Below, one piece after another: positions 55,517-64,000 of a DNA stretch of 64,000 bases. Every line of letters starts with the position of its first letter. The first letter of the stretch is position 1. A program made the translations under genes and the position numbers. Source of the DNA: Formosa algae (lineage in GTDB: Bacteria; Bacteroidota; Bacteroidia; Flavobacteriales; Flavobacteriaceae); assembly GCF_001439665.1 (NCBI RefSeq), contig NZ_LMAK01000011.1, positions 167,899 through 231,898 on the forward strand. Direction: 5' to 3'. The notes under the pieces were generated by a model, which was not told the DNA's origin, ran no database searches, and saw only the letters and a program-made list of their open reading frames with translations.

Positions 55517-56185
55517 TTAATTAGCCTGAATTAACTGCTGTATAAGATCTTTTAAATCGGAACTTATAAGATCGGGTTGTAAGTAATACGGATTATAAAT
55601 TTCTGTCTTTCTTTTGATATAAGCCGTGCTTAATCCTGCTTTTTTAGCGCCGAATAAATCCCAATCGTGCGTGGCAACCATAGCAATTTCATGAACCTGA
55701 AGCCCTTCTTGTTGAGCAACATAATGATAAATATCTTTAAAAGGCTTATATTTTTTAACCGCATCTACAGAATAATACGAATCAAAATAATCTATAATTT
55801 CTGCATTCGTTAACTGCTCTTTAATCATCTCTAAAGAAGAATTAGAAACAGCAATGACCCGAATATCATGTGCTTTTAAGAGTTCTACTGCCGGAATTAC
55901 ATCATTATAAGCAGGTAGCTTTTTAAAAGCACCTAAAATCTGAGCTTTAGTTTCTGACGTTAAAGGTTTATCGTTTTCAAAAAACAGATTCTCTAAACCT
56001 GCATCGGCCAATTCACCGAAATTTTTATATGTATCCATAGTGCCCATCACTGTAGAACTATGCAATAATTTTGTAAACCAATATTTAACCACATAAGCAT
56101 CATCAAAATATTTATCAAACTCAGACTTCAATAAGCTAAGGTTTAATAAGGTTTCATTCATATCGAAAAATACTGCTTTTTTCAT
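55517..56185 (-). CDS. HAD-superfamily hydrolase (haloacid dehalogenase type II-like)
   Basis: A 222-residue HAD enzyme. Motif I is FFDMNETLLN with nucleophile Asp8, motif II is IAVSNSS, a Lys lies in KKYKPFKDIYH, and motif IV is MVATHDWDLFGAKKAG. The cap and the motif IV form resemble type II haloacid dehalogenases and their Bacteroidota homologues. Dehalogenase activity is not proven; it may be a phosphatase. It lies 42 bp downstream of the lipoprotein gene. Confidence 0.87.
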   Translation of the reverse strand: MKKAVFFDMNETLLNLSLLKSEFDKYFDDAYVVKYWFTKLLHSSTVMGTMDTYKNFGELADAGLENLFFENDKPLTSETKAQILGAFKKLPAYNDVIPAVELLKAHDIRVIAVSNSSLEMIKEQLTNAEIIDYFDSYYSVDAVKKYKPFKDIYHYVAQQEGLQVHEIAMVATHDWDLFGAKKAGLSTAYIKRKTEIYNPYYLQPDLISSDLKDLIQQLIQAN

Positions 56186-56227
56186 ATCATTCTGGTTTTA
56201 ATAAGGAAGTGAATTAAAATTAAGATT

Positions 56228-57073
56228 TTATTTAACGAAGTCTGCTTTTTCTAAACCATTATTAAACTTTATGTCCGTCCAAGTCACATTAATCCATGGT
56301 TTATCTGTCACTTCTGCATCCCAATTAGACGCTTTATATCTTCTTTTTGTTGGAATTAATAATCCGTCAATTTCTTCATATTCTAACTCCATTAACAACG
56401 GATCTGACTTTCCAAAATCCATTACTGTAAACAAAAACTGGTCGACTAATTTTGTATCTGTATTGATGTATAATTGATAAATATCTTTAGGTTTCCCATC
56501 TTCAGAATCGAAAGTTACTTTTACCACATCATAGTTTGCATCACCTACTGTTTGTGCTTTAATATAATCGTAGTTTAATCCCGGATCCATTAATTTCTGC
56601 ATCATTGTAAACCAATAAAAATTTGTTGGTCTGTTAAACGCCACACGTTTTAAAGCTGCAGAATCGTTTACCACTTTACTCTCATGTTTTAACCAATATT
56701 CGGTCCCGTCGTATCCTTGTTCTAACGTACCTTCCATATCTGCCAACGATCTTTCATGCTTGGTATACATCCCGTAAGATAACTCGCCATTAAACATATA
56801 TTTTTCTGTTGTAATATCTGTTTTTCCATCGGGAGTTTGATAGGTATATGTATACACCACATCTTTTTTACGCATGAGTTCACCATAATCTCCAACTTTC
56901 TGAGTCATGTTATACACCAACTCATGAGCTTTGTTTTTAAATTCTGGTGTTTTTTCCGGAACTATTTGCTCTGAGGTCTCTTGTTTTACTGCTGAAGACA
57001 CCGTTTTCTTTTCGTCTTTACAAGATATCAAAGTGGAAATTGAAATTAAACTTACTGCTAAAATTTTTCTCAT
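56228..57073 (-). CDS. lipoprotein, DUF6503-like
   Basis: A 281-residue predicted lipoprotein. The lipobox is TLISC (Cys18) after a short signal. The rest is soluble and beta-rich, resembling LolA/outer-membrane lipoprotein-sorting-like folds, with AHELVYNMTQKVGDYGEL and YDGTEYWLKHESKVV segments. I recall a DUF6503 family of this type in flavobacteria. Function unknown. It is upstream of the HAD gene on the same strand and may be cotranscribed. Confidence 0.75.
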   Translation of the reverse strand: MRKILAVSLISISTLISCKDEKKTVSSAVKQETSEQIVPEKTPEFKNKAHELVYNMTQKVGDYGELMRKKDVVYTYTYQTPDGKTDITTEKYMFNGELSYGMYTKHERSLADMEGTLEQGYDGTEYWLKHESKVVNDSAALKRVAFNRPTNFYWFTMMQKLMDPGLNYDYIKAQTVGDANYDVVKVTFDSEDGKPKDIYQLYINTDTKLVDQFLFTVMDFGKSDPLLMELEYEEIDGLLIPTKRRYKASNWDAEVTDKPWINVTWTDIKFNNGLEKADFVK

Positions 57074-57286
57074 TGTTGTTTTTATTTGGAAGTGAAATTA
57101 AATGGAATAGTAGAATTTATAAAGAAAACCTTACAAATTATTTGAGAAAACTTACTAAACTGAGATGATTTATCCGCTGTTGAAAATATCTATAAACGAA
57201 ATCCCCATCTAATAATTCAATTCTACGTCTTATGCTTAACCACATAAACTTTCCTTTTTTCGTTATAGTAAACCCATAATAAAAGT

Positions 57287-57294
57287 TAAGTTTG
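57287..57294 (+). promoter_or_regulatory. -7 element for the LRR kinase gene
   Basis: TAAGTTTG matches TAnnTTTG, 18 bp upstream of the ATG at 57313. No clear -33 TTG was found. Confidence 0.45.
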
Positions 57295-57312
57295 CAGCTT
57301 AATATTTTTAAC

Positions 57313-58614
57313 ATGACGCATACTTTAGAAGATTTAAAATCGGGAGCCTTAATAGGAAGTAAACGCCTAAAATTAGCTTGTGGATTAACAACTTTTCCTG
57401 AAGAAATATTAGCATTAGCAGATACTTTAGAGGTTTTAGATTTATCAGACAATCAACTATCGTCTTTACCAGAAAGTATTGCGCAACTTAAACAGTTAAA
57501 AATTATATTTTTTGCACGTAATGCATTTACCGAATATCCTACCGTTTTAGGACACTGTCCAAATTTAAACATGATTGGGTTTAAATCTAATCAGATTCAT
57601 ACCGTTGCAGAACACAACTTTCCACCAAAATTAAATTGGCTGATTTTAACCGATAATAAAATTAATACTTTACCAAAAAGTTTAGGGCAATGTAACTTAC
57701 TACAAAAATGTGCTTTAGCAGGAAACCATATTGAAGCTTTGCCCGTCGAGATGTCTAATTGCAAAAACTTAGAACTTTTAAGAATTTCTGCAAATCGCTT
57801 CACGTCTATTCCTGACTGGTTATTTGAATTACCAAAATTATCTTGGGTGGCTTTTGGCGGAAATCCATGTTCGCATCAGGCAAACATAAACACCGATATA
57901 GAATCGTATACTTGGAACGATTTTAATATAAATGAGCTCTTAGGCGAAGGGGCTTCTGGACTAATTTATAAAGCGAATTGGAAACTAAAACAAACCGATA
58001 TCGCACTTAAAATTTTTAAAGGCGATGTAACTAGTGATGGATTACCAGACGATGAAATGGCTGTTTCTATAGCTGCTGGAGCTCACGATAGTTTAATTCC
58101 TGTGTTAGGAAAAATTAAAAATCATCCGGAATCTAAAAGCGGATTAATAATGAAGCTTATAGATCCGTCTTTTATTAATTTAGGAAACCCGCCAAGCATG
58201 CAATCTTGTACGCGAGATGTATTTAACGAAGGCGTGACTTTTAGTACTGCAAACTTACTAAATATAGCCAAACAAATGGCCTCTGTAAGTGCGCAATTAC
58301 ATAGTAAAGGCATTAATCATGGCGATTTATATGCACATAATATTCTGATTAATAATACTGCACAATGTCTATTAGGAGATTTTGGAGCGGCTACCTTTTA
58401 TAACAAACAATCCCATAAAACACATAATATTGAACTTATAGAAGTGCGTGCTTTTGGATGTTTGTTAGAAGACATTTTAAATCTTGTTCCTGAAAACAGC
58501 ATAGATAAGAGGTTGAAAGAAACATGGGAAAGTTTAATCTCAGATTGTTTCTATCCTCAGGTAAACGCTCGTCCTTTATTTTCTGAACTTATAAACACCT
58601 TAAATACGTTTTAA
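57313..58614 (+). CDS. leucine-rich-repeat protein kinase
   Basis: A 433-residue protein. Leucine-rich repeats (about residues 15-200, with LEVLDLSDNQLSSLPESIA and later LRISANRFTSIPDWL) are fused to a protein kinase domain (about 205-433). Kinase features are the glycine loop GEGASGLIYKA, Lys233 in IALKIFKG, catalytic Asp338 in HGDLYAHN and the magnesium Asp356 in LGDFGAA. All essential residues are present. The TTG upstream at 57292 lies within a TAAGTTTG -7 element, so the ATG at 57313 is chosen. No transmembrane helix is seen. Such LRR kinases are rare in bacteria and the target is unknown. Confidence 0.9.
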   Translation: MTHTLEDLKSGALIGSKRLKLACGLTTFPEEILALADTLEVLDLSDNQLSSLPESIAQLKQLKIIFFARNAFTEYPTVLGHCPNLNMIGFKSNQIHTVAEHNFPPKLNWLILTDNKINTLPKSLGQCNLLQKCALAGNHIEALPVEMSNCKNLELLRISANRFTSIPDWLFELPKLSWVAFGGNPCSHQANINTDIESYTWNDFNINELLGEGASGLIYKANWKLKQTDIALKIFKGDVTSDGLPDDEMAVSIAAGAHDSLIPVLGKIKNHPESKSGLIMKLIDPSFINLGNPPSMQSCTRDVFNEGVTFSTANLLNIAKQMASVSAQLHSKGINHGDLYAHNILINNTAQCLLGDFGAATFYNKQSHKTHNIELIEVRAFGCLLEDILNLVPENSIDKRLKETWESLISDCFYPQVNARPLFSELINTLNTF

Positions 58615-58693
58615 AATCTATAATAATCTAGCAAATTGCTGTTTTCTGATATAACTAAATTTGTGTTTTAGACCTTTCAAAATAAAACTGTAG

Positions 58694-59152
58694 TATTTAA
58701 ATTTTTGGTCGCAATTAGAGTTTAAAACAGGTTATAGTCATTTAGATGTATATCGAGAAATTGATGGCAAAAAAGACGTTTTACCCTTTAATCCGAAACA
58801 TAAAATTGTGAGTAATTTAGGCTATAAACCGCTTTCTAACTTGTTTAGATTAGACCTTAGTTTTCATTGGTATGGCGAGCAACGCTTACCAGATACTCAA
58901 AGTAATCCAGTAGCTTATCAGCGACCAGATTATTCTAAAGATTATGCCATTGTAAACACTCAATTTACCTACAATTTAAAATCTGTTGAATTGTATACGG
59001 GTTGCGAAAACATATTTAATTTTAGACAAGATCAGCCAATTATAAGTTAGGAAGATTCCTTCGGACCTTATTTTGATACCAGTTCGGATTGGGGGCCAAC
59101 ACGAGGGCGAGAATTCTATTTTGGAGTCCGCTATAAAATTCCGAGTATCTAA
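58694..59152 (+). pseudogene. C-terminal remnant of a TonB-dependent receptor
   Basis: The open frame from 58694 encodes about 150 residues of an outer-membrane receptor's last barrel strands, including FWSQLEFKTGYSHLDVYREI, LFRLDLSFHWYGEQRLPDT and YTGCENIFNFRQDQPIIS. An in-frame TAG at 59048-59050 is followed, in the same frame, by EDSFGPYFDTSSDWGPTRG and REFYFGVRYKI, the usual receptor terminus. The remaining roughly 600 N-terminal residues, plug and signal are absent. It is thus a truncated and stop-interrupted decay product. It lies just after the LRR kinase gene. Confidence 0.85.
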
Positions 59153-59263
59153 AAGAAACTTCACGTTAAAAAACCTTTTGTGTCAAATTCAAGTTAAAGC
59201 TATACTTAAATGTCTAAAAATTTAGTAATTTTCATATCTATAATAATTTAATTTAGACACAGT

Positions 59264-59305
59264 AAAGCACAGTGTATGTAAACGACAAGACATATACTGT
59301 GCTTT
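59264..59305 (+). terminator. terminator-like hairpin just upstream of the SRPBCC gene
   Basis: A 16-bp stem with one wobble pair (59264-59279 with 59290-59305; core AAAGCACAGT / ACTGTGCTTT) and a 10-nt loop is followed by T residues. It ends about 16 bases before the SRPBCC start codon. It either ends transcription from the kinase region or is a leader attenuator. Confidence 0.75.
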
Positions 59306-59321
59306 TTTAAACAATTTATAC

Positions 59322-59783
59322 ATGGGAGTATATCAATTTAAACGAGAACAATCTTTTAATCAACCTATAGAAACCCTTTGGGATTTTATTTCCAATCCGA
59401 AAAATCTTAAAACCATAACTCCTGATTATATGGGTTTTGATATTGTGTCTGAAGATTTACCCGATGCCATGTATGAAGGTATGATTATTCACTACAAAGT
59501 CTCCCCTGTTTTGGGTATAAAAACCACTTGGGTTACAGAGATTACACATGTTAAAGACCGACATTATTTTGTAGATGAGCAACGTGTTGGTCCGTATAAT
59601 ATTTGGCATCACCAGCATTTTTTAGAAGCGACACCAAACGGAACGTTAATGAAAGATATTGTGACATACCAACCACCTTTTGGCATTCTTGGAAATATTG
59701 CAAACGGTATAATGATTGAAAAGAAATTAGAAGAAATATTTGAATATCGACATGTTGTTTTAACCGAATTATTTGGTAAATAA
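59322..59783 (+). CDS. SRPBCC family protein
   Basis: A 153-residue START-like ligand-binding protein. The N-terminal FKREQSFNQPIETLWDFISNPKNLKTITPDYMGF and later DEQRVGPYNIWHHQHFLE with MKDIVTYQPPFGILG are typical of the SRPBCC cell-division-inhibitor-like group. Ligand unknown. A strong hairpin lies in its immediate upstream region. The YheT-like gene follows 58 bp later on the same strand. Confidence 0.87.
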   Translation: MGVYQFKREQSFNQPIETLWDFISNPKNLKTITPDYMGFDIVSEDLPDAMYEGMIIHYKVSPVLGIKTTWVTEITHVKDRHYFVDEQRVGPYNIWHHQHFLEATPNGTLMKDIVTYQPPFGILGNIANGIMIEKKLEEIFEYRHVVLTELFGK

Positions 59784-59841
59784 GCAGTATCATTACAACC
59801 TATTTGATTAAAATTAGAATAATTTGCCCAGAGCGTAACAC

Positions 59842-60816
59842 ATGCCTTTAATACCAAAATCCAAATATCAAGCCCCGAGTTTAATCCATAAAAACCCACA
59901 TTTTTCTACCATTTATGCAGCAAAAATCAAGCATGTATCGCCGCCCGATTATCTTTCAGAGAATTTAGAATTAAGTGATGGCGATTTCTTAAATGTAGAT
60001 TATATCTTGAAAGACAGAAAAAAAGGCGTGATTTTATGTCATGGTTTAGAAGGCGATTCCAGACGCACCTACAACAATAGTTGTGCTAATTATTTTACGG
60101 AACGTCATTTTTCTGTGTTTGCTTGGAATAATAGAACCTGCGGCGGACACATGAATCGTTTACCAAAAATGTATCATCATGCCTCTATAGACGACTTAGA
60201 TGCGGTGATTCAATTCGCCTTTACACAAGGCATAGAAACCCTATATCTTATTGGCTATTCTATGGGTGGCGCACAGGTTTTAAATTATTTAGGAAAACTT
60301 ACACCGGATCCGCGTATTAAAGCAGCTGTAGCCGTATCTGCTCCTACACATATAAAAACATGTTCTAATGCTTTAAATGTAGGATTTAACAAAATCTATT
60401 TAAATAATTTTAAAAAAGAGATTGTAAATAAGTTGAAACAAAAAGTAGTTCAGTTTCCAGAACTCGCCAATACCGATAAAATAAACGTGCTCTATAGTTT
60501 TGATGAAATAGACGATTATTTTACAGCGCCAATGCATGGTTTTTTAGATAAAGAAGACTATTATAAGCGCGTATCTCCAGAATTCAGCTTAAAACATATA
60601 ACCACTCCTGTTTTAATACTTAATGCTTTAAACGATCCGTTTTTAGGCGAACGTTGTTATCCTATTTCTCGATCTAAACACAGCAAATATGTATATTTAG
60701 AAACTCCTGAATATGGCGGACACTGTGCTTTTCCGTTAAAAGATTCTAAACATTCTTATGCAGAAGTTCGGGCTTTTGAGTTTTTTACTACAAAAGATAA
60801 AGCATCATTCTATTAA
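59842..60816 (+). CDS. YheT-like alpha/beta hydrolase
   Basis: A 324-residue alpha/beta hydrolase. The oxyanion region is VILCHGLEGDSRRTYNN, and the nucleophile elbow is LIGYSMGGAQVLNYLG. The Asp lies in LNALNDPFL and the His in YGGHCAFP. The N-terminal HFSTIYAAKI and AWNNRTCGGHMNRLP place it in the YheT/ABHD-type esterase family. It likely acts on lipid esters; the substrate is unproven. It is the last ordinary gene before the integron-like element. Confidence 0.9.
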   Translation: MPLIPKSKYQAPSLIHKNPHFSTIYAAKIKHVSPPDYLSENLELSDGDFLNVDYILKDRKKGVILCHGLEGDSRRTYNNSCANYFTERHFSVFAWNNRTCGGHMNRLPKMYHHASIDDLDAVIQFAFTQGIETLYLIGYSMGGAQVLNYLGKLTPDPRIKAAVAVSAPTHIKTCSNALNVGFNKIYLNNFKKEIVNKLKQKVVQFPELANTDKINVLYSFDEIDDYFTAPMHGFLDKEDYYKRVSPEFSLKHITTPVLILNALNDPFLGERCYPISRSKHSKYVYLETPEYGGHCAFPLKDSKHSYAEVRAFEFFTTKDKASFY

Positions 60817-60942
60817 TTCGGATTTTCATATTCATCTAAAATAGGGCTTCATAAATCACTCTAAACCCCACTTCTATTTTGATGGTGATGTAGTTATCTA
60901 AGCTTTATTTAATTTACAACTTTACTTTCCATTTTATTTTAA

Positions 60943-60970
60943 TTGACAAAATAAAACATTAATTTACAAT
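60943..60970 (+). promoter_or_regulatory. sigma70-like promoter for the recombinase gene
   Basis: TTGACA (60943-60948), 16 bp, then TACAAT (60965-60970) is close to the E. coli -35/-10 consensus and unlike the Bacteroidota TTTG/TAnnTTTG form. If real, it overlaps the ATG at 60969 and favours the ATG at 60999 as start. Confidence 0.4.
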
Positions 60971-60998
60971 GTTTTACCAATTATTAAATCATATTAGA

Positions 60999-62171
60999 AT
61001 GGCACTACCTAAAGTTATAATCTCGACAAAATTCTATAAAAATGCACATCGATTACTCATTAGATTCGGATATAATGACGTGCTAATACAGCGCGTAAAA
61101 TTATTACCAAAAACACGTTGGAGTGTCTCGCTAAGATGCTGGTACATGGACTATGATAGCGATGCTTTAACATTAATTCATGACACTTTAGATGGTTATG
61201 CTATAATTAATGATAGTGCAGTAGATTTTAGTATTGTACACAGAACAAAACACATAAAACGCGTACGCCATATTTGTGAAGCCCACCGTACAATTTTAAA
61301 AGATTACAGGAATTACTTAAGGGGCAAACGGTATAGTGAAAGCACAGTTAATAGTTATCTCATTTTACTTGCCGATGTAATAGAATTTCATGATGGCAAA
61401 CCTATAGAAGAATTAAATAATCGGGTTATAGAGCTATTTATAGAACAAGTTATGGCTCCTAAAAATTATGCTATAAGTACCCATAGGCAATTGGTAAGCG
61501 GCATTAAACATTTTAAGAATTTCTATCCTAATTGCCAGATTAATGAATTGAATTTATTTAGCCCTAAAAAAGACCGGTTATTACCTAATGTATTATCTCA
61601 ATCTCAGATATTAGATCTAATAAGATGTACTGAGAACTTAAAACACCGAACTATAATAGCGCTTATTTATTCCTGTGGATTACGTATAGGCGAGCTTATA
61701 AATTTACAACGAAATGCAATAGATATTGATCGCAGACAATTAGTAGTTAAACAAGGAAAAGGTAGAAAAGACAGGTATATTATTTTAGCAGAATCTTGTG
61801 TGCCGTTATTACTTAACTATATATTTACTTACCAGCCTAAACAATACCTCTTTGAAGGCCAGAATTTACCACAATACAGAGCTGAAAGTATAAGAGCGTT
61901 TTTAAAACGCAGCTGTGCTAAAGCAAAAATCACAAAACGCGTAACACCACATACGTTACGCCACAGTTATGCCACACATTTGTTAGAACAAGGTATAGAT
62001 ATAAGATACATACAAGAATTGTTAGGCCACAGCCGACCAGAAACCACCATGATTTACACTCATGTCACTAAAAAGGATTTATTACATATAAAAAGCCCTT
62101 TGGATATTGCATTAAAGCAGATTACTACAAGCCACACAAACTCTAACGGATTATTAAGTCAGAATTTTTAA
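60999..62171 (+). CDS. tyrosine site-specific recombinase of an integron-like element
   Basis: A 390-residue tyrosine recombinase. Catalytic residues, numbered from the ATG at 60999, are Arg229 (SCGLRIGELINL), Lys254 (KQGKGRKDR), His318 and Arg321 (TPHTLRHSYATH), His344 (ELLGHSRPETT) and Tyr353 (MIYTHVT). A core-binding SAM-like domain covers about 90-180. An extra N-terminal domain (about 1-90, with RWSVSLRCWYMD) precedes it, as in many Bacteroidota recombinases. The IntI-specific insertion before patch III is not visible. An ATG at 60969 would add 10 residues but overlaps a sigma70-like promoter. It is followed by attI-like and cassette sequences. Confidence 0.92.
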   Translation: MALPKVIISTKFYKNAHRLLIRFGYNDVLIQRVKLLPKTRWSVSLRCWYMDYDSDALTLIHDTLDGYAIINDSAVDFSIVHRTKHIKRVRHICEAHRTILKDYRNYLRGKRYSESTVNSYLILLADVIEFHDGKPIEELNNRVIELFIEQVMAPKNYAISTHRQLVSGIKHFKNFYPNCQINELNLFSPKKDRLLPNVLSQSQILDLIRCTENLKHRTIIALIYSCGLRIGELINLQRNAIDIDRRQLVVKQGKGRKDRYIILAESCVPLLLNYIFTYQPKQYLFEGQNLPQYRAESIRAFLKRSCAKAKITKRVTPHTLRHSYATHLLEQGIDIRYIQELLGHSRPETTMIYTHVTKKDLLHIKSPLDIALKQITTSHTNSNGLLSQNF

Positions 62172-62220
62172 ATAAAAACGGTCTCATTAATTTATAATCT
62201 GTAAATTTATAAAGACAATA

Positions 62221-62283
62221 CAAACATTGGTTTATCCCGTGTATTTATATGATATACGTAACCATTGTTTAGTATATAACTAG
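62221..62283 (+). other. attI-like primary recombination site
   Basis: Between the recombinase and the first cassette lies an imperfect inverted repeat with arms CATTGGTT (62225-62232) and AACCATTG (62260-62267). Inside it, GTGTAT (62239-62244) and ATATAC (62252-62257) also pair roughly. The CCGTGTAT core is shared with the left arm of both attC-like repeats. GTAAC (62258-62262) and GTTAC (62283-62287) form a second inverted pair around the junction. The proposed crossover is G62283|T62284. I saw no TAnnTTTG cassette promoter here. Confidence 0.65.
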
Positions 62284-62305
62284 TTACCTGCAAGCTAAAC
62301 AAACT

Positions 62306-62752
62306 ATGTTCCAAGATTCAACAACACTGAAAAACCGACATCTAAAATTCATAAAAACTGTATCCGAAACGGAATTAGTTTACGGTTTGAAAAGTGAAAA
62401 TGGATTCGCCACATCTAATTCAACTCAAATTGAGGACAACGATGGAAATCCAATTGGAATGATATGCTTTTGGGCAGAAAAGGTAAGAGCTAAATCTTGT
62501 GCTAAAGACGAATGGAAAAAATATAAAGTGACTGAAATTTCACTTTCTGAATTTATGGAGAACTGGTGTATTGGAATGGCAAATGACGGACTATTAATCG
62601 GAACGCAGTTTGACCAGAACCTGTTTGGTTTTGAAACTGAACCATTGGAATTAATCATAGAATTGACAGCCGAATTAAAATCACTAGGAAAGGATTTGAA
62701 TTTTAGAAAGTTTAATGGAATTGAAGACTTAAAAAACAAGTCAAAGAAGTAA
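62306..62752 (+). CDS. cassette gene: DUF2750-like protein
   Basis: A 148-residue cytosolic protein. ICFWAEKVRAKSCAKDEWKKYKVTEISLSEFMENW followed by GMANDGLLIGTQFDQNLFGFETEPLEL-type order fits the DUF2750 family, which is often found in immunity-like or stand-alone roles. Function unknown. The start lies 22 bases inside cassette 1. Codon use (many GGA, AAC and GAC codons) looks unlike the core genes to the left. It is followed four bases later by a second ORF, so they may form a functional pair. Confidence 0.72.
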   Translation: MFQDSTTLKNRHLKFIKTVSETELVYGLKSENGFATSNSTQIEDNDGNPIGMICFWAEKVRAKSCAKDEWKKYKVTEISLSEFMENWCIGMANDGLLIGTQFDQNLFGFETEPLELIIELTAELKSLGKDLNFRKFNGIEDLKNKSKK

Positions 62753-62756
62753 CTGA

Positions 62757-63137
62757 ATGAAAAAAGTGGAACAAAAAATAGAAACACCTTTTAATGAAAA
62801 ATTCTGTACTAAATTAGAATTCAGAGTTTGTAACGAATTGGAAAAATCAACTGACCCAGAATTAAAAGGATTTTGGTGTGATGGAATTTCGTGGCTTACA
62901 ACTGAAAATCAGCTGACTAAAAAACACGTGAATGACAAACGAAAGATAGAAACTAAAGCGTGGATTGGAAAAACTGGACAAACAGAATTTAAGGCAATAA
63001 TTAATTTCGGACAAAAAGCATTGAGCAAATATGCCAAAGAAATGGATTTGACAGAGTGCATTCCTGATTTGGAATCTCAAGCTGAATGGATTGAAATTGA
63101 TATTGAGAATAAAACAATAAAAATAGAACTGAATTAA
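62757..63137 (+). CDS. cassette gene: hypothetical protein
   Basis: A 126-residue soluble protein that I do not recognise. It has a charged N-terminal half (FNEKFCTKLEFRVCNELEKS), a WCDGISWL segment and a C terminus ending WIEIDIENKTIKIELN, suggesting a small alpha/beta fold. It begins four bases after the DUF2750-like stop codon and ends six bases before the attC-like repeat. A toxin/immunity or similar pair is possible but not shown. Confidence 0.65.
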   Translation: MKKVEQKIETPFNEKFCTKLEFRVCNELEKSTDPELKGFWCDGISWLTTENQLTKKHVNDKRKIETKAWIGKTGQTEFKAIINFGQKALSKYAKEMDLTECIPDLESQAEWIEIDIENKTIKIELN

Positions 63138-63143
63138 AAGCCA

Positions 63144-63280
63144 GCAGGTAACACCGTGTATAATTAATTGCTAGGTTCTCGCCTACTTACGAACATTCCT
63201 GCGGAATATTCTATCTGTGATTTATTTGCTAAATTAGTTGCTTAACCACGCAACTAACCATACACAATCACGTTGTACAC
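63144..63280 (+). repeat. attC-like recombination site A (between cassettes 1 and 2)
   Basis: Order of boxes: R'' GCAGGTAAC (63144-63152), three bases, L'' GTGTATAATTAATTGC (63156-63171), central part, L' GCAACTAACCATACAC (63250-63265), six bases, R' G|TTGTACAC (63272-63280). L'' and L' pair at 13 of 16 positions. The centre contains GAACATTCC-TGC-GGAATATTC (63191-63211). A further hairpin TTAGTTGC / GCAACTAA (63234-63241 / 63250-63257) overlaps L'. R'' and the adjacent R' share only AAC/GTT, as expected when R' belongs to the next cassette. Confidence 0.82.
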
Positions 63281-63286
63281 AACCTA

Positions 63287-63880
63287 ATGAAAATCGATAA
63301 GAAACAAAAAGACGAATTAGATTTAGCATTCAACGAATCTAAAATAAACTATGTCGGAATTGAATCTGATATAGTGGAAGTCTTGTTGAACTGTATTTCG
63401 ATGAACTCAAATAATGAATTTCTTGATGATAACCGATTTAGAATACTTTTTGAGAAGTATGGACGAATTGCAGTAAGTTATCGAAAAGGAAGTTGGGATG
63501 ATGAAAGTGCCGAAATTGAAAAAATAAAACCGAACGAGCTGAAATCAAAATTTCACGGACTTATTCTCGACTCAATGTATGGTTGGGAATTTATAAACCT
63601 TGACGAAAAGCAATTTAAAGATTGGTCGGACAAAATAAGTCTTGACGTAATTCAGAAATCTAATTGGTCAAGTATGAATACAATTGACCTTTTTGCCGAA
63701 CAAATTGGTAAAGATGAAGTTACGATTGACATAAGAATTTGGTTTACCGATTTCAAAATTTTTGATTTTAAGAACAGAGAATTAACGAAAACAGAATTTG
63801 CGGAAAACGGACAAAGAGGATGGAATCAAATGTATAAAACAGGAATATCAACAACTGATAATAAAACGACAAAACTCTGA
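63287..63880 (+). CDS. cassette gene: hypothetical protein
   Basis: A 197-residue soluble protein that I do not recognise. The N-terminal helix (KIDKKQKDELDLAFNESKI) is followed by a mixed alpha/beta body with SMYGWEFINLDEKQFKDW and IDIRIWFTDFKIFDFKN. The order and composition recall small immunity- or DUF-type proteins, but I cannot assign a family. Its start lies 14 bases inside cassette 2 and its stop is 9 bases before attC-like repeat B. Confidence 0.68.
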   Translation: MKIDKKQKDELDLAFNESKINYVGIESDIVEVLLNCISMNSNNEFLDDNRFRILFEKYGRIAVSYRKGSWDDESAEIEKIKPNELKSKFHGLILDSMYGWEFINLDEKQFKDWSDKISLDVIQKSNWSSMNTIDLFAEQIGKDEVTIDIRIWFTDFKIFDFKNRELTKTEFAENGQRGWNQMYKTGISTTDNKTTKL

Positions 63881-63889
63881 AAAAGGCAA

Positions 63890-64000
63890 TGTACAACACC
63901 GTGTATAATTAATTGCTGTATTTCTGCCTACTTGCGAATATTCCTGCGGAATATTCACGGGTTCGTAAAAGTTTGCTAACTTAGTTGCTAAACCACGCAA
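63890..64000 (+). repeat. attC-like recombination site B (cut by window end)
   Basis: R'' TGTACAAC (63890-63897), three bases, L'' GTGTATAATTAATTGC (63901-63916, identical to site A), and a perfect central hairpin GAATATTCC-TGC-GGAATATTC (63936-63956). TTAGTTGC then leads to the first bases of L' (GCAA, 63997-64000). The L'' to L' distance is about two bases longer than in site A and the centre is roughly 70 percent alike. Confidence 0.8.

Follow-up and report, generated by a model that had tools for sequence, protein, structure and literature searches.

A tyrosine recombinase gene, an attI-like region and small-gene units closed by related palindromic repeats stand in series at the right end of a 64,000-nucleotide stretch of the Formosa algae genome (contig NZ_LMAK01000011.1, positions 167,899 to 231,898; here called the window). 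Which kind of system collects genes at this locus? A preliminary description, made from the letters of the window, proposed an integron-like array belonging to an independent or strongly diverged cassette-capture system. All of the components it named were found in the window, and the proposal is supported by the analysis below: it expected further repeats beyond the window, a conserved link between recombinase and repeats, and content that differs among relatives, and each of these was observed. We consider it highly probable that window 60969-64000 forms the first part of a chromosomal cassette array of the integron type, whose Xer-like tyrosine recombinase is predicted to move the cassettes. 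At the level of sequence, this reading is based on the architecture of the sites, their covarying arms, the complementary ends of the cassettes, duplications bounded by CGTT, the uniform strand and the position downstream of the recombinase. The window stops at 64000, the end of contig C11 (231,898 bases; the window is C11:167899-231898), which cuts the array.

Extent and distribution of the repeat

A BLAST search with the repeat against its own genome (E ≤ 0.001) gave 31 matches including the query itself, far above chance, and an iterated profile search over the contigs fetched from this genome gave 55 copies. The covariance model R1, built from 28 bottom-strand copies of the own genome, gave 59 matches over 13 contigs (E ≤ 0.05). 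The closed genome of a congener (G003) contains two arrays ~0.5 Mb apart with 58 and 49 sites, G004 contains 46 and 20 sites in two stretches, and G002 contains 12. These sites, 185 of the 196 matches in the genus, were used for the test of cassette ends described below; not used were ten matches in L079-L083 and, in L069, a weak match on the opposite strand. The sites used in G002-G004 lie on a single strand per stretch.

R1 matched 65 of the 98 relatives examined. Within the family, 55 of 59 genomes matched, 46 of them with five or more sites; in other families of the order, 10 of 39 genomes matched, with 1-5 sites apiece. A covariance-model search of Bacteroidota had been suggested in the preliminary description, and across an even sample of the phylum R1 matched 63 of 296 genomes. 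R1 gave no match at E ≤ 1 to the canonical attC sites on plasmid R388 or at 12 canonical IntI loci.

Complementary cassette ends

If a cassette is excised as a circle by a cut within GTT, the right end of site n, where the cassette starts, has to match the left end of site n+1, where it ends. We compared these tags for neighbouring sites less than 1,200 bp apart and counted agreement at at least 6 of 9 tag positions as a pass. In G002-G004, 122 of 124 neighbouring pairs passed, whereas the pass rate was 11.9% between the left and right end of a single site and 7.3% over all pairings, and none of 10,000 tag permutations reached the observed total (939 vs at most 472). Position by position, the 124 pairs agreed at 0.85-0.99 over tag positions 1-7 and at 0.87-0.97 over positions 9-11, but never at position 8 (0.00). 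There the cassette start has A in 124/124 and the cassette end (read as reverse complement) has G in 112/124, which again gives a G.T wobble on the bottom strand.

The same holds outside the genus. From 542 recombinase loci of relatives we took the best 80 (the named loci); 26 of these, 25 of them outside Formosa, provided 92 pairs, of which 78 passed (0/5,000 permutations). Seven further genomes (G001, G011, G014, G028, G029, G036 and G044) gave 32 passes among 38 pairs. For the own genome, where 31 pairs were compared irrespective of spacing, agreement averaged 4.84 of 9 tag positions, beyond all 10,000 permutations.

Structure and strand of the sites

The arms of the repeats pair better within a repeat than across repeats (0/10,000 arm permutations), and the bottom-strand duplex is stronger than the top-strand duplex in 36 of 37 repeats. 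RNAalifold predicted no structure from the top-strand alignment; the stem described here was obtained by re-aligning the bottom strand and specifying the stem by hand. This stem, AAC/GTT plus 16 bp, was paired in 92.8% of alignment cells for 28 own sites (0/500 shuffles). In the best 150 of the 196 genus sites it was paired in 98.7%, with compensatory changes at 11 of 19 pairs, in an alignment that was fitted to R1 and hence leans towards the model. The covariation indicates that the attC-like sites can form a hairpin from one strand, with the bottom strand favoured.

In attC sites of the IntI class, extrahelical bases set the strand. The 16-bp stem, the part of the hairpin that was resolved, has no conserved bulge and has conserved G.T wobbles in its place; two such wobbles, which are A.C mismatches on the top strand, are present in 149 of 150 genus sites. 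The core consensus of IntI-class attC sites is RYYYAAC / GTTRRRY. The sites here depart from it: right ends read GTTR in 121 of 124 sites and the full GTTRRRY in just 5, and left ends read RYYYAAC in 5 of 124.

Identity of the recombinase

That the recombinase does not look like IntI, as had been remarked before, is right in a precise sense, since the additional domain of IntI is missing. Passages of two studies call this domain defining for integrons (PMC9668308) and make it a selection criterion (PMC2426708). The aligned IntI block is absent in 20 flavobacterial recombinases (L045 was omitted, having no open frame) and present in IntI1 and 12 Bacteroidota IntIs. The K box and the H-x-x-R box are separated by 58-59 residues in the 20 proteins, by 64-66 in the two Xer proteins compared and by 100 in IntI, as read in the 9 of 13 IntIs where this spacing was readable. 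The six residues that we take to be catalytic are kept in 20/20 flavobacterial recombinases.

The window recombinase scored 189 bits against the NCBIfam integron integrase model, below its cut-off, which none of 59 relatives reached. The Xer models were not reached either (XerC, 184 bits vs a cut-off of 335; XerD, 175 vs 330; XerA, NF040815, 212.4 vs 220). XerA and an XerC-like protein were the best-scoring solved relatives, followed by IntI4; the nearest named relatives are the recombinases of Formosa sp. L2A11 (80%) and Formosa sediminum (78%). Two Xer-like genes lie elsewhere in the own genome.

A canonical integron with diverged IntI and attC, its recombinase descending from IntI with the additional domain lost, would account for an attI, sites and cassettes that follow the same logic, for the third rank of IntI4 and for the 189 bits. 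We regard this as unlikely, given the distribution of the insert and given that archaeal XerA outscores IntI4 and the XerA model outscores the integron model. In addition, a tree with 8 of the 13 IntIs (five were excluded as near-copies or for a fused frame) groups these 8 in a single clade (100/99), separate from the 20 recombinases (88/66); its root is unplaced because it contains just two Xer rows, both on long branches. Since the IntI domain is missing and GTTRRRY is rare, the system works like an integron in our reading and is not filed under the IntI class.

Proteobacteria and a few other phyla are, as remarked earlier, the groups from which integrons are best known, but a supplement is needed: of 345 genomes sampled from Bacteroidota, 93 have a canonical IntI that reaches the NCBIfam cut-off, and none of these is placed in the order of the window. 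Passages of the IntegronFinder 2.0 study give one complete integron in Bacteroidetes proper, that of Salinibacter ruber (PMC9024848). At E ≤ 1e-30, 159 plasmid records matched the recombinase, 5 of them with a place covering at least 80% of the protein; 53 phage records matched at E ≤ 1e-20, none covering at least 80%, and arrays were not sought in plasmid or phage records.

The ~100-residue N-terminal domain (window 60999-61300) weakly resembles HARP, a DNA-fork-binding domain. We treat this as no more than a lead: the Pfam match was found in 2 of 23 members (best E 0.014), a SMARCAL1 chain matched at E 0.99, and an alignment of the domain alone found none.

Link between recombinase, attI and array

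In the 80 named loci R1 found 225 sites, all on a single strand and 223 of them downstream of the recombinase (the two others are L108:5283 and L125:5700), while one third of the flanking DNA lies downstream. Where at least 1,500 bp of downstream sequence were available, the repeat was present there in 44 of 46 loci, and the expected link proved to be conserved. The recombinase stands directly upstream of the array in many genera. Contigs end within 2 kb downstream of the gene in 40 of 80 loci and within 2 kb upstream in 2; cassette arrays are the likely reason why many assemblies stop just behind the recombinase gene.

A GTT behind the recombinase carries the tag of the first cassette (at least 6 of 7 positions) in 31 of 44 loci with a site, against a chance expectation of ~0.0013 per GTT with 5-19 GTTs per locus. 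These positions share the consensus ATATAACNA followed by GTT, at a median of 34 bp from the recombinase stop, and mark a putative attI adjoining the gene. In the window, the first GTT core follows the recombinase stop after ~110 bp.

Some attI-like stretches lead arrays of their own. No recombinase lies in the 6.5 kb preceding array b of G003; this array starts with a 100-bp copy of attI with one mismatch, and its first cassette passes the tag test. Contig C35 of the own genome has an attI-like stretch (74% over 80 bp) followed by one cassette that bears the tag GGCGGTA at its start and at its end and runs up to a site truncated at the contig border; the three recombinases found in this genome all lie on other contigs. 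From such attI-led arrays without an adjacent recombinase gene, it appears that one recombinase probably serves several arrays.

Content varies at a fixed place. In G003 the recombinase occupies the same chromosomal spot, with the genes for the HAD protein (partly inside the stretch), lipoprotein, leucine-rich-repeat (LRR) kinase, SRPBCC protein and hydrolase in order upstream. The cassette proteins of the window have no match in the compared 20-kb stretch of G003, and blastn of the 36 own cassettes against the other fetched arrays gave matches for only 2, in line with the expectation that relatives differ in content.

Could the housekeeping XerC/XerD or another recombinase work the sites, with the adjacent gene a passenger? 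The arrays of G023, a genome without a close relative of the recombinase, and the two Xer-like genes elsewhere in the own genome would fit such a division. The position of the recombinase directly upstream of arrays in many genera, a conserved attI that begins right behind it, its intact catalytic residues and the shorter relatives that adjoin arrays in G006 and G033 make it very improbable.

Proposed exchange of cassettes at the core

We compared 372 cassettes cut from the fetched arrays for full-length identity. Fifty-five pairs at distinct places were at least 98% identical, 31 within one array and 24 between arrays of one genome; their 47 copies fall into 16 clusters, 11 of them in G003 and 5 in G004, so the pairs are not independent. 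On the left, identity ended 1 base from GTT in 30 pairs, 2 bases in 12, 3 in 2 and more in 11. On the right, counted from the G of GTT, it ended after 3 bases in 27 pairs, 4 in 16, 5 in 7, 6-7 in 3 and 2 in 2. Nine of the 14 clusters evaluated (of 16) were delimited to at most 2 bases on the left and 4 on the right. The two pairs whose identity ended after GT were considered as a variant of the core and set aside: an insertion sequence interrupts one partner there, so these cases were not used for placing the cut. The best fully covered cassette shared between genomes was 94% identical over 534 bp (G004 vs G044, different genera). Together the sequences point to mobile cassettes that are exchanged at the core site.

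Ordinary repeats (REP-like, that is, of the repetitive extragenic palindrome type, or transposon ends) that spread passively and duplicate units through homologous recombination are hardly credible as an explanation: the repeats are similar enough to recombine and contigs tend to end behind the gene, but homologous exchange would break anywhere in the ~140 bp whereas most breaks fall at CGTT, and it would neither produce complementarity between the start and the end of a cassette, which belong to different repeats, nor align the open reading frames (ORFs).

Separately, an insertion sequence of ~1.67 kb with a transposase ORF lies exactly between CCGT and T of the core in several different sites, with CCGT on both sides (Table 1); it seems to target the recombination core.

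Observations weighing against the proposed array, and its predicted mechanism

Several observations weigh against reading the locus as a mobile cassette array. Recombination itself was not observed, the circles, the strand used and the position of the cut being deduced from sequence. The tag test is passed by just 12 of the 23 neighbouring pairs of the own genome, 14 of 92 pairs fail it in the named loci, and 13 of 44 loci are without an attI tag match; undetected sites or decay may be the cause of these failures. A second attI-like stretch in G002 has no site in the 3 kb examined. Near-identical cassettes occur in two genomes only, and 0 of the 55 pairs join different genomes. A profile search without structure places 5 of 491 sites on the minority strand, and the R1 match excluded in L069 (E 0.006) overlaps a site on the opposite strand. 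Some genomes have repeats and no close recombinase: G023 has 31 R1 matches and no recombinase match at E ≤ 1e-30, which can be read either as the work of another recombinase or as an array left behind. A shorter recombinase also accompanies the same sites, divergently in two genomes, so the N-terminal domain and the co-directional layout are both dispensable. Finally, among 30 family genomes listed in the phylum sample 17 matched R1 and 13, all of genus g79, did not, so the family is covered unevenly.

The exceptional layouts are those of G006 and G033, where shorter relatives of the recombinase (272 and 277 aa) lacking the N-terminal domain are divergent from arrays with the same sites; the N-terminal domain is thus unneeded for the association. 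In G038 a relative (aligned from query residue 119) precedes a co-directional array. A divergent integrase is usual for class 1 integrons, and in R388 intI1 is opposite to its cassettes.

For the cassette array as proposed, we infer excision as circles, bottom-strand cleavage, an exact cut inside CGTT, a role for the wobbles and action in trans. The Xer-like recombinase would insert circular cassettes at attI, the preferred place of insertion, where the first cassette would supply the right half of the site. It would excise and reshuffle cassettes at the ~140-nt sites, which likely fold from the bottom strand. A cassette would leave as a circle in which its end tags could pair (seven variable base pairs, the G.T wobble and three more pairs) and lengthen the hairpin. 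The recombinase would bind the folded bottom strand and cut within CGTT, most likely between G and TT as in integrons. Strand choice would likely come from the conserved G.T wobbles, with their A.C mismatches on the top strand, and not from extrahelical bases. A single recombinase may act in trans on several attI-led arrays.

Features of the window

The coordinates are collected in Table 1. The recombinase start at ATG 60999 gives the length of its closest homologues. The first unit contains two ORFs rather than one, coding for a DUF2750 protein and a protein without an assigned family. Cassette 1 starts with GTTACCTGC and ends with GCAGGTAAC; its start tag ACCTGCA is complementary to its end tag at 6 of 7 positions. 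Cassette 2 starts with GTTGTACA and ends with TGTACAAC, and the five bases following GTT (GTACA) are complementary to its end. The ORF of cassette 2 has no family match. The attI-like stretch may also contain a lead promoter. An Rfam scan of window 60800-64000 (E ≤ 10) gave five matches, each far below its gathering score. Upstream, ORF 57292-58614 codes by eye for leucine-rich repeats followed by a protein-kinase-like domain.

Table 1. Features of the locus and of related loci. Positions without a prefix are those of the window.
Feature	Position	Strand	Details
Conserved chromosomal genes upstream of the recombinase	55517..60816		HAD-type, lipoprotein, LRR-kinase, SRPBCC, alpha/beta hydrolase; names by eye
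Tyrosine recombinase gene	60969..62171	+	400 aa; 390 aa from ATG 60999
Recombinase domains			Core-binding and catalytic domains, ~100-aa N-terminal extra domain; IntI-specific insert absent
attI-like site	62186..62285	+	Core TATATAACTA followed by GTT; GTT at 62283-62285
Cassette 1	62284..63272	+	Bounds assume crossover between G and TT; ORFs 62306-62752 (DUF2750) and 62757-63137
attC-like site 1, including 9-nt tags	63141..63283	+	AAC 63150-63152, left arm 63156-63171, right arm 63250-63265, GTT 63272-63274
Cassette 2, truncated at contig end	63273..64000	+	ORF 63287-63880, 197 aa
attC-like site 2, cut at 64000 by contig end	63886..64000	+	AAC 63895-63897
Insertion sequence at the core	L074:1571, L074:6028, L075:8645; near L070:9419		G004; G003 array b (near L070:9419)
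Shorter divergent recombinases	L217:10555-11373, L218:4762-5595

Orientation and content of the cassettes

Among 137 cassettes of at most 1,500 bp in G002-G004, the longest ORF lies on the array strand in 111 and on the opposite strand in none; 26 have no ORF of about 60 aa or more. We scanned 107 of the 111 ORFs, four being dropped because they cross stretch borders. Pfam (E ≤ 0.001) gave 56 families, and among the 25 listed most occur in one member; the listed families include WapI-like, Imm33 and NTF2-type immunity proteins, GNAT, ParE and AbiU2-HEPN. Eight PADLOC models match, with one or two members per model.

The most duplicated cassettes are a 560-bp unit with 7 copies in the G003 arrays and a 641-bp unit with 8 copies in the G004 arrays (e.g. 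L073:7624). They have no ATG-started ORF of more than 26 aa on the array strand; a promoter or a small RNA may be what they carry. The G006 array includes a reverse-transcriptase-like ORF on the same strand as the array (L217:8047-9084; retron-type by eye).

Relation to known systems and implications

The arrays share with integrons (IntI, attI and attC) a recombinase beside attI, tens of same-orientation cassettes as in chromosomal integrons or superintegrons, imperfect-palindrome sites ending in AAC...GTT, complementary cassette ends, CGTT-bounded duplications and variable content at a fixed locus. They differ in the absence of the IntI-specific domain, the rarity of the GTTRRRY core, the G.T wobbles in a bulge-free 16-bp stem, the extra N-terminal domain (long form) and a recombinase that is co-directional with the array (main form). 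With XerA, XerC and XerD (5hxy, 4a8e, 1a0p) the recombinase shares the lack of an insert, and XerA and an XerC-like protein are its best-scoring solved relatives, whereas its link to a cassette array, its ~100-aa N-terminal extension and the separate Xer-like genes of the own genome set it apart. The second arrays without an adjacent recombinase gene recall the attC clusters lacking integron integrases that are known as CALIN, but differ in having an attI of their own, as in array b of G003 and on contig C35 of the own genome. The term CALIN is that of IntegronFinder, in passages of that study (PMC9024848).

We read the system as a separate lineage of integrons that occurs widely in Flavobacteriaceae. 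We lean, with some reserve, towards a Flavobacteriaceae integron class of its own. It would be a second solution to cassette capture, with an Xer-type recombinase without the IntI domain, a hairpin strand marked by G.T wobbles, cassette-specific 7-bp end tags that would zip only in the excised circle, and one enzyme for several attI-led arrays in trans.

Passages of the literature tie integron cassette capture to IntI and its additional domain (PMC9668308, PMC2426708), and in open-licence full-text literature we found no description of integron-type arrays in Flavobacteriaceae, subscription papers and preprints being outside this search. Searches that demand IntI or the attC consensus would likely miss such arrays, and a gene-capture system has likely been overlooked in much of the family. 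The system is a natural test of the enzyme features needed for single-strand hairpin recombination, and its arrays open a pool of unstudied accessory genes, with immunity-like, toxin and defence-like families among the 107 cassette proteins.

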